The position numbers and the translations under genes are program-made. A DNA stretch of 64,000 nt from Natrinema hispanicum (GTDB lineage: Archaea > Halobacteriota > Halobacteria > Halobacteriales > Natrialbaceae), in NCBI RefSeq assembly GCF_900111485.1, contig NZ_FOIC01000001.1:62001-126000 (forward strand), read 5' to 3'. The notes under the pieces are model-generated. The model was not told where the DNA came from, searched no databases, and saw only the letters and a program-made list of their open reading frames with translations. Positions 17,581 through 61,523 of the stretch are shown piece by piece (the stretch's first letter is position 1; every line of letters begins with the position of its first letter).

Positions 17581-17784
17581 TCAAATGCGAACGGACAGTC
17601 AGCCCACCGAGAACGTTCGACTGATACGGGCTGCTGTCCCGGCCCGGCCGCAGTGCGGGTCGCGGCCGGCCGTCACTGACTGACAGGAGCCCGTCTGAGA
17701 CGCCGTCGTCTCGAACTCGAGACGGACTTTAAAACGAGACTCGAGTCAGTTCCAGCGACCCGAGCAAACGCGACTACCGCGCGA
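17581..17784. other. Intergenic region between cbi operon and reductase gene
   Basis: With 17488-17580 this makes a 297-bp gap. It contains an inverted repeat CGTCTCGA-AC-TCGAGACG (17707-17724) and the T-run described as a terminator. I see no gene. Confidence 0.5.
17731..17748 (-). terminator. Possible terminator of the SDR reductase gene
   Basis: On the minus strand, 37 bp after the reductase stop, the palindrome GACTCGAGTC is followed by TCGTTTT. T-runs end transcription in archaea; the run here is short. Confidence 0.3.
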
Positions 17785-20917: not shown

Positions 20918-21206
20918 CAGTCTGCCGGTTTTCGTCGCGAGGCCAACGCGTGGTCCCTTTGAGCCGAGATATTAATGCGTGACATTCACAAGCACATTAT
21001 TTATGATAGCGCAGCGCGGAGTCATCCCTGTCACTGGGCGATAGCAAGTCTGGTGATTGAGAGGCTGTCTCGTGTGTCAAGCACCGATGATACACAGGCC
21101 ACGCGTCCTCGAAGAACGGAGAGAGAAAAGCACGAACGAGGATCTGAGCACCGTTTCGCGTGGCCGTTTGGGGGCACTCGGTACCGGACGCGGTACCGAT
21201 TTTCAT
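20918..21206. other. Gene-free stretch, possible small RNA
   Basis: No convincing ORF. It holds AT-rich patches (GATATTAATG near 20968, CATTATTTATGATA near 20995) that could be promoters reading right, and it ends with a hairpin followed by T4 (21178-21204). A transcript of roughly 175 nt is possible. Then the 72-bp repeat begins. Confidence 0.3.
21178..21204 (+). terminator. Hairpin followed by TTTT
   Basis: TCGGTACCG (21178-21186) pairs perfectly with CGGTACCGA (21191-21199) around GACG, followed by TTTT. Looks like an intrinsic terminator for rightward transcription. Confidence 0.45.
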
Positions 21207-21278
21207 ACTGCCGGACAGAACGATGTGAAGCCGGCCGCAAATTCGCGACCGGCTTCGTATTGACTGCTGTCCGGTAGT
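21207..21278 (-). repeat. 72-bp dispersed hairpin repeat, copy 1
   Basis: Nested inverted repeat: outer arms ACTGCCGGACAG and CTGTCCGGTAGT, inner arms GAAGCCGGCCGC and GCGACCGGCTTC. Its reverse complement matches 60717-60788 at 63 of 72 positions, without gaps. It lies 15 bp beyond the queC stop. Differences between copies keep the base pairing (see findings). Confidence 0.85.
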
Positions 21279-21293
21279 CTCATGACGCGATCG

Positions 21294-22025
21294 CTAGTCG
21301 TCGACGTACGATGGCCGCTCGGCGTACTCGATCGGGTCACGAACGCCGATCCGCTGGAACGCCTGGAGCCGGAAGGCACACGCATCACAGGTCCCACAGG
21401 CGGGTTCGTTCTCGCGGTAGCAACTCCACGTGTGTTCGTAGGGAACCTTGAGTTCGACACCGCGTGCGGCAATGTCGGTCTTCGAGTGCTCGACGAACGG
21501 CACTTCGATCGCGATCTCGGTTGCGGGTTTCGTGCCGACGTCGACCACGTGTTCGAAGGCCTCGAAGAACTCGGGACGGCAGTCAGGATAGCCAGAGAAG
21601 TCCTCGCTGTGAGCACCCATGAACACCGCATCACAGTCGTTTGCCTCTGCATACGAGACCGCCATCGCGAGCAAGTTCGCGTTTCGGAAGGGGACGTACG
21701 ACGATGGGATTTCGTCGCTCTCTAAGTCGGCGTCTTCGACGGCCAGCTCGTCATCGGTGAGACTCGAGGCACCGATCGCCGCGAGATGGCCGGTCTCGAT
21801 CCGCAGGAAGTCGGCCGCGTCGAGGTCGTCGGCGAGTTGGCGAGCGCACTCGAGTTCGCGATCCTCGGTTCGCTGGCCGTAGGAGGTGTGCAGCGCGTAG
21901 ATCTCGTAGCCCTGCTCGCGGGCCTCGTAGGCGGCGGTGGCACTGTCCATCCCGCCGGAGAGGAGGACGACGGCGCGTTTCGTGGTCGATTCGTCAGCTG
22001 CGGAGTCGCGTGATGTATCAGTCAT
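21294..22025 (-). CDS. queC: 7-cyano-7-deazaguanine synthase (preQ0 synthase)
   Basis: 243 residues. The PP-loop SGGMDS is at 23-28 and a C-terminal zinc site has four Cys in SCYRENEPACGTCDAC. It converts 7-carboxy-7-deazaguanine to preQ0 with ATP and ammonia. In archaea preQ0 goes to archaeosine at position 15 of tRNA. It follows queE by 15 bp and ends the queD-queE-queC operon; folE-type cyclohydrolase and tgt genes are not in this window. Confidence 0.94.
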   Translation of the reverse strand: MTDTSRDSAADESTTKRAVVLLSGGMDSATAAYEAREQGYEIYALHTSYGQRTEDRELECARQLADDLDAADFLRIETGHLAAIGASSLTDDELAVEDADLESDEIPSSYVPFRNANLLAMAVSYAEANDCDAVFMGAHSEDFSGYPDCRPEFFEAFEHVVDVGTKPATEIAIEVPFVEHSKTDIAARGVELKVPYEHTWSCYRENEPACGTCDACAFRLQAFQRIGVRDPIEYAERPSYVDD

Positions 22026-48049: not shown

Positions 48050-48368
48050 GGCACGGCTCTCTCCCAGCCGCAGCGGGATAATCCTGGGGTGCCCATGCCG
48101 TCTGTCGTCCCCCTGCGAACGGGAGACCGTCCGATCGGAATCGGTGGCGACGCACCCTCGATGAGTCCGGCGTACACCGAGTTCCTGCTCGAGGCCACTA
48201 TCGATTCGATCTCGGCCTCGCCGGATGTCGTCGTGGAGGCGATCCTGACGGTCGTAAAATACGAAAACCGATTCGTGGCCGTCGATCAGACGGACTGCTG
48301 TCAGCCAGTGCCAGTGCACCCGCGACCCGTCCTGCGGGCGCACCGGGAACTCGTGACAGCAGCCCGTC
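48050..48368. other. Gene-free stretch between sugar kinase and fbp
   Basis: 319 bp. It holds the kinase promoter. A rightward ORF of 80 codons (48161-48400) overlaps the fbp 3' end and lacks acidic character. I see no other feature. Confidence 0.45.
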
Positions 48369-60554: not shown

Positions 60555-60716
60555 GCGGACGAGTACCGACACTCCTGCGGGGTGCATTTCAGACATATTC
60601 GCTCGCCTGTACGCTCTCGAGTCACTCCCGTCGTCACTCGGTTCGTGAGTGAAACGCAGGGCAAACGCGATGACTGCGTCGCGGAGCCACTCGAGACAGG
60701 CGGGACCCAATCTCAT

Positions 60717-60788
60717 ACTACTGGACAGCAGTCAATACGAAGCCGGTCGCATGTATGCGGCCGGCGTCACGTCGTTCCGTCCAGCAGT
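60717..60788 (+). repeat. 72-bp dispersed hairpin repeat, copy 2
   Basis: Outer arms ACTACTGGACAG and CCGTCCAGCAGT, inner arms GAAGCCGGTCGC and GCGGCCGGCGTC. It is 63/72 identical to the reverse complement of 21207-21278. It ends 2 bp before the stop of the halocyanin gene on the minus strand. Confidence 0.85.
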
Positions 60789-60789
60789 A

Positions 60790-61206
60790 TCAGTAGTAGC
60801 CTCCCCCATCAGCGTCGCTGCCATCGCCGAGTGGATCCTCGATGGTTTCATCACCGATGCTCACCTTCATACTCATCCCCGACAGGTCGGCGTCGCCGTG
60901 GACGCTGCAATAGACATCGTACACCCCGCTTCCCCCGAACGTGTGGGTCGTCTCCGCGCCGCCAGGAACTTCGCTGTCTTTCTCCCAGTTGTCCGAGGCT
61001 GCCGTGACCGTATGGCGCGTCTCGTCCTCGTTGGTCCACGTGATCGTCGCATCCGTGTCGGCGTGGACGTTCCGCGGATCGAACTGCTCATCGACCATCG
61101 ACACGTCAGTGGTCTCTTCGCCAACCGGATCGCTCCCACCCAGACAGCCCGTTACGAACAACGTCGACATCCCTCCTGTCGCTGTGAGAACTGTTCGACG
61201 GTTCAT
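60790..61206 (-). CDS. Halocyanin-like blue copper lipoprotein
   Basis: 138 residues from ATG 61206. Signal MNRRTVLTATGGMSTLFVTGC with twin Arg and lipobox Cys21. Plastocyanin-fold mature domain with the type 1 copper ligands His in TRHTVTAAS, then Cys, His and Met in YCSVHGDADLSGM. Tat-exported, lipid-anchored electron carrier. Fits the neighbouring heme O synthase gene as part of a respiratory chain. The repeat copy 2 abuts its 3' end. Confidence 0.9.
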   Translation of the reverse strand: MNRRTVLTATGGMSTLFVTGCLGGSDPVGEETTDVSMVDEQFDPRNVHADTDATITWTNEDETRHTVTAASDNWEKDSEVPGGAETTHTFGGSGVYDVYCSVHGDADLSGMSMKVSIGDETIEDPLGDGSDADGGGYY

Positions 61207-61523
61207 ACATGTTACCATGCGTATTTCGATACAATAGCTGTTCGGAGTGATCGCTTTGGCCGACTGTTTCGATCCGCTGTCGCTATCCCTGACAGGTGTC
61301 GAGCGTCCGCCAGTCCGGTCGAACTCTCGTGGTCCGGACAAGCGTGCTGTTATTCCTCGAGACGATCGACTGGCATACTGCCCGCTGGGTATCCACAACG
61401 ACAACCGAAGCGAGCGCCGACCGAGGCCGACAGTTGTCCGCCGAGAAGACACCGAAACGACGGTGACTGCTCGAAACCACCACGAGTCAGCAGAAACGAC
61501 TGTGTACGAAGCTCAGTCGTCGT
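61207..61523. other. Gene-free stretch
   Basis: 317 bp between the halocyanin start and the transporter stop. A rightward frame is open from 61247 but its product is Arg/Thr/Ser-rich without haloarchaeal character, so I reject it. I see no repeat or hairpin of note. Confidence 0.45.

Follow-up and report, generated by a model that had tools for sequence, protein, structure and literature searches.

The same hairpin stands twice, in inverse orientation, in a 64,000-nucleotide stretch of haloarchaeal DNA (the window) from a genome of 3.96 Mb, and we asked what kind of element it is. The original prediction had described a 72-bp repeat whose compensatory base changes implied selection on the folded form, as RNA or cruciform, and had offered a REP-like element, a miniature transposon (MITE) or a shared bidirectional terminator as its nature.

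Extent and setting of the two window copies

Upon recomputation, the reverse complement of 21207-21278 agreed with 60717-60788 at 63 of 72 positions without gaps, exactly as predicted, with differences at positions 6, 35, 36, 37, 39, 50, 55, 62 and 67. The match stood, but the boundaries did not: the ungapped inverted match runs to 74 bp, and the true units are 21206-21279 and 60716-60789, both of the shape TACTG...CAGTA-like and with direct TCA repeats just outside. Compared with dinucleotide shuffles, both fold very stably (copy 1, plus strand, -46.8 kcal/mol, z -8.9; copy 2, minus strand, -37.3 kcal/mol, z -5.4). Both also lie near the 3′ ends of minus-strand genes, as had been noticed, copy 1 ∼14 bp beyond the queC stop codon and copy 2 abutting that of a halocyanin-like gene. 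The features are as follows:

21178..21203, plus strand: native terminator-like hairpin and TTTT beside copy 1, present at relatives' empty sites
21203..21205, no strand: target-site duplication TCA left of copy 1 (TGA on the minus strand); single TGA in the orthologous empty site of sister genome G002
21206..21279, plus strand (better-folding): MITE copy 1, 74 bp, ends TACTGCCGGACAG and (reverse complement) GACTACCGGACAG
21280..21282, no strand: target-site duplication TCA right of copy 1
21294..22025, minus strand: queC (PF06508, 3.3e-74), with copy 1 in its 3′ flank
60713..60715, no strand: target-site duplication TCA left of copy 2
60716..60789, minus strand (better-folding): MITE copy 2, 74 bp, ends TACTACTGGACAG and (reverse complement) TACTGCTGGACGG
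60790..60792, minus strand: target-site duplication TCA, which is the TGA stop codon of the halocyanin-like gene; single TGA in the orthologous empty site of G002
60790..61452, minus strand: cupredoxin-domain (halocyanin-like) gene (PF13473, PF00127), whose stop codon is the target of copy 2

A dispersed family and its empty sites

A BLAST search with copy 1 returned 37 pieces at about two dozen loci of its own genome, where the end motif TACTGNNGGACRG occurs 26 times, compared with 6 for the reversed control. These copies are mostly 74 or 107-108 bp long and have similar ends, differing palindromic cores and mostly TNA flanks. The wider search that the original prediction had proposed was likewise productive: of the 293 genomes sampled from the order, 44, belonging to 21 of 87 genera, contained the family termini TNATACTGYCGGACAG, and the reversed-pattern control gave 0. 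One genome, G229, carries ∼100 end motifs, mainly of a 79-bp element that it has in common with named Halobellus contigs, and is therefore probably a Halobellus. Overall, the hairpin elements are non-coding, measure 74-110 bp and have 13-bp terminal inverted repeats and no transposase. The majority end in TACTGYCGGACAG, with the conserved form TACTGYCGGACAG(A/C)A, and show a 3-bp TNA target duplication. Across 190 collected end pairs, the 3-bp flanks were identical in 126, and 125 of these were TNA (TCA 59, TGA 44, TTA 11, TAA 11); the target sites give the logo YTNAR, in which C or G is preferred at the central base. The element enters YTNAR-like targets and duplicates their central TNA. Searches elsewhere gave no match to a described RNA family (Rfam, window), no element in a phage collection, and six chance matches to the element pattern in IMG/VR, with no MITE structure among the sequences inspected.

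One member of the family in G229 (L345, 1504-1713) is 210 bp long, with ∼130 bp of extra, unrelated-looking sequence in the hairpin loop and TGA/TGA flanks. A second palindromic MITE family (ends TACGG-YTGCTGT) has two window copies, at 48289-48368 (TCA/TCA) and 17625-17695 (TGA/TGA), and 47 copies in the fetched loci, of which 34 have identical 3-bp flanks, 33 of them TNA; at L107 (1147-1335) and L358 (1504-1694), it is nested within members of the first family.

The orthologous loci of related species record the insertions. At queC, the sister genome G002 reads GCGTCG-TGA-AAATCGGTACC, and the same TGA is occupied by a 74-bp element, with TGA on each side, in the window genome, G019 and G024; in G016, the sister of G019, the element was seemingly lost via a small deletion. 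At the halocyanin-like locus, G002 reads TACTAC-TGA-GACTGGG and the window genome TACTAC-TGA-[74 bp]-TGA-GATTGGG. Comparison of these loci shows both window copies to be absent from the sister species, in which one TNA is left. The original prediction had named as the contrary case two solitary copies, with sister loci bearing no target-site footprint; we found more copies, and a single TGA in G002. Locus trees fit an insertion after the split from G002, with one node weakly supported (0.59), and movement is read here from orthologous loci rather than directly observed. The orthologous copy-2 element measures 42 bp in G024, 74 bp in the window genome and 108 bp in G019. The 74- and 108-bp forms differ by 34 bp, which are bounded by the imperfect direct repeats CCGGTCAC and CCGGCCGC, so that hairpin slippage probably produced the two forms. 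Just past queC in G002 (L384), there is also a third palindromic insert, TAGTAGCCACTGAACG...GTTTCAGTTGTTACTA, apparently TA-flanked and within the TAG stop codon of queC.

The guess of a MITE was therefore well placed: the copies are many and scattered, they carry inverted repeats at their termini and TNA duplications at their sides, empty counterparts of their sites exist, and an IS630 relative resembles them at its ends (see below). The REP-like option fared worse. Short, extragenic, dispersed palindromes are indeed what would be seen if a tyrosine (RAYT or IS200-605-like) transposase moved a REP/BIME palindrome, or if the hairpins were haloarchaeal PATEs. However, in most copies inverted repeats are clear at the termini and 3 bp of the target are duplicated, empty sites exist, and similar ends occur on a DDE-type IS630 element, which makes this origin extremely improbable; PATEs have neither terminal inverted repeats nor a target duplication (PMC3119063). 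A closer likeness is to the MITEs or SMRs of Haloquadratum walsbyi (HqIRS), which are also short, non-coding haloarchaeal elements with terminal inverted repeats. The SMRs, of ∼80-110 bp, leave the target unduplicated, bear repeats that are not related to those of known transposons and have other mobile elements as their targets (PMC3119063), whereas the present family duplicates TNA and is enriched on stop codons.

Paired changes in the palindrome

The stable folds and the position at gene ends would also suit an RNA or cruciform kept by selection, for example a bidirectional terminator shared by the adjoining genes. Pairing was examined across 79 elements of the 108-bp size class. As RNAalifold yielded no consensus fold that could serve for them, the fold of a single copy defined the pairs. 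Paired changes do occur in other copies, as the original prediction had anticipated: 13 of 40 pairs show compensatory types, and Watson-Crick pairing (0.842) exceeds that of shuffled controls (0.815). These changes are real but appear to mark subfamilies (for example, G31-C80 versus C31-G80). Among derived one-sided departures within pairs, G.T (88) and A.C (99) are similarly frequent, with no strand preference; a selected RNA would favour G.T, and the near equality therefore indicates decay of double-stranded DNA. Even at position 6, the pair types among the 79 copies are C.A 28, T.A 26, C.G 21 and T.G 2. Between the two window copies, the predicted double change at positions 6 and 67 (C-G to T-A) is present, but the other differences said to keep pairing are not of this kind: positions 35-39 lie in or beside the apical loop, and 50, 55 and 62 changed on one side only.

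Comparison across species points the same way. At the copy-1 site, three species differ by single, uncompensated substitutions near one end that partly break pairs, the copy-2 core varies in length as described above, and relatives lack the element altogether. Nor is there a terminator-like site, a hairpin followed by a T-run, at either element; the separate native hairpin beside copy 1 has this form and predates the insertion, which speaks against a shared terminator. The orientation of elements relative to the gene whose stop codon is struck was uneven but not significantly so (17 versus 8, p 0.11). Taken together, the paired changes fail to demonstrate selection on an RNA, contrary to the initial claim, and a selectively conserved structure is very unlikely. 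We infer that the palindrome was inherited from a succession of source elements built as inverted repeats, and that it is not maintained after insertion.

Candidate mobiliser and insertion at stop codons

A search of loci with PF13358 (DDE_3) led to a 1070-bp IS element in G024 (flanks TCA/TCA), in the window's own genome (L456, 884-1953) and in G229. Two overlapping frames of the element encode HTH_33 and DDE_3. It matches model NF033545 (IS630) and belongs to a haloarchaeal subgroup of the IS630 family (DDE_3, Tc1/mariner-related) that is annotated as 'IS630 family transposase' on plasmids of Natribaculum, Haloarcula, Natrinema and Halovenus. Transposases of this type lie between MITE-like ends at L456, L475 and L455 and in plasmid copies. 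Close relatives on Natribaculum, Haloarcula, Halorubrum and Halovenus plasmids have related ends (TACTGTCRGC... and TACTCACRGACATAAGTACGT...) and identical TNA flanks, the Halovenus left end being the most divergent. The 1070-bp IS has ends of the form TACT..C.GACA.AA.TACGT.AAGA, which resemble those of the MITE. As read by eye, identical TNA flanks enclose 7 of the 10 copies whose ends could be read; the exceptions are in the own genome and G229 (both TGA/TCA) and in Natrinema zhouii. Past the TACT, 14-18 of 24 positions of the IS ends agree with the best MITE end; none of 78 control TNA-TACT sites exceeded 14. The MITE differs in its lack of a transposase, and the likeness is confined to the terminal ∼25 bp. 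The search for a RAYT or DDE transposase with matching ends, proposed in the original prediction, thus turned up similar ends on a DDE-type IS, but exact 13-bp TACTGYCGGACAG ends on none of the IS elements searched; the type of transposase is therefore well supported, and a specific autonomous parent is not.

Since 1070-bp elements that resemble the MITE in their ends and in TNA duplication occur in the own genome and in relatives, the MITE is probably moved by an IS630-family DDE transposase that would act in trans. IS630 elements usually duplicate TA, and the other groups examined, including the ISNamo16 group, look TA-type. As the MITE and 7 of 10 related IS copies show TNA instead, IS630 membership is stated here for the transposase only, and the MITE 'works like' such an element. 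The bacterial MITEs ERIC, RUP and Correia/NEMIS are likewise small non-autonomous palindromes, in some cases linked to ISs of the IS630 type, but duplicate TA; the present family, likened to them by description, differs in its TNA duplication. A further IS630-type element, in G245 (L457, 1432-2503), has perfect 13-bp ends TAGGGATCAGCAG and TGA/TGA flanks and possibly represents another TNA-duplicating group.

Another DDE family could in principle have moved the MITE, the likeness to IS630 ends being convergent. The IS5/IS1031 group is known for TNA duplications, and DDE_Tnp_1 transposases are numerous in the genus. However, TACTG ends were found at none of the sampled DDE_Tnp_1 loci, DDE_Tnp_1 matches number only 5 in G229 and 2 in G158, both of them rich in the element, and PF13586 and PF13359 were absent from the six genomes tested; no element ending in TACTG emerged from the PF13586, PF13359 or PF01609 searches. 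As it is the IS630 elements that combine end similarity with TNA flanks, such a mobiliser is unlikely. Candidate long terminal-inverted-repeat pairs in L107, L227, L217 and L254 turned out either to arise by chance or to enclose unrelated genes lying between distinct MITEs.

At copy 2 the target is a stop codon, and TNA is a stop codon on one strand whatever the N (TGA/TAA or their complements). Flanks were joined, and genes called with a home-made codon-usage caller. Exact stop-codon positions account for 29 of 102 non-coding insertions, compared with 162 of 3127 other non-coding TNA sites at the same loci. Merging of orthologous insertions left 112 independent ones, 96 non-coding and 16 scored as coding, some of which may be gene-caller errors. 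Of the 96, 28 coincide exactly with the stop codon of a gene, compared with 5.2% for the background TNA sites (p 2e-13, odds ratio 7.5), a statistic that by itself cannot tell target choice from purging of harmful insertions. The excess persists among YTNAR sites (20/53 versus 28/535). This shows that insertion exactly on stop codons is over-represented. The excess may arise because TNA always forms a stop codon on one strand: an element landing on a gene's own stop is harmless, since the insertion duplicates the stop and the protein stays intact, and most other genic hits would be purged. It is also conceivable, though rather doubtful, that the machinery itself favours stop codons, with an IS630-type transposase and TNA target perhaps guided by gene-end sequence or state, making a self-harmless 'stop-codon homing' family.

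Overall, the hairpins are very probably copies of a transposase-less haloarchaeal MITE family with YTNAR-like targets, a TNA duplication, a probable IS630-type transposase in trans, an excess on stop codons and a palindrome that is not maintained. The family is ordinary in kind; what is unusual is that an IS630 subgroup duplicates TNA and that stop codons serve as sites without harm, and in the open-access literature, mainly its titles and abstracts, we found no description of harmless stop-codon landing via TNA or of a TNA-duplicating haloarchaeal IS630 subgroup. The finding accounts for a recurrent unannotated hairpin of haloarchaeal genomes and removes a tempting but false signal of RNA structure. 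It indicates a haloarchaeal IS630 subgroup that duplicates TNA, not TA, and shows how a 3-bp TNA duplication permits a transposon to sit on a stop codon without damage to the gene.
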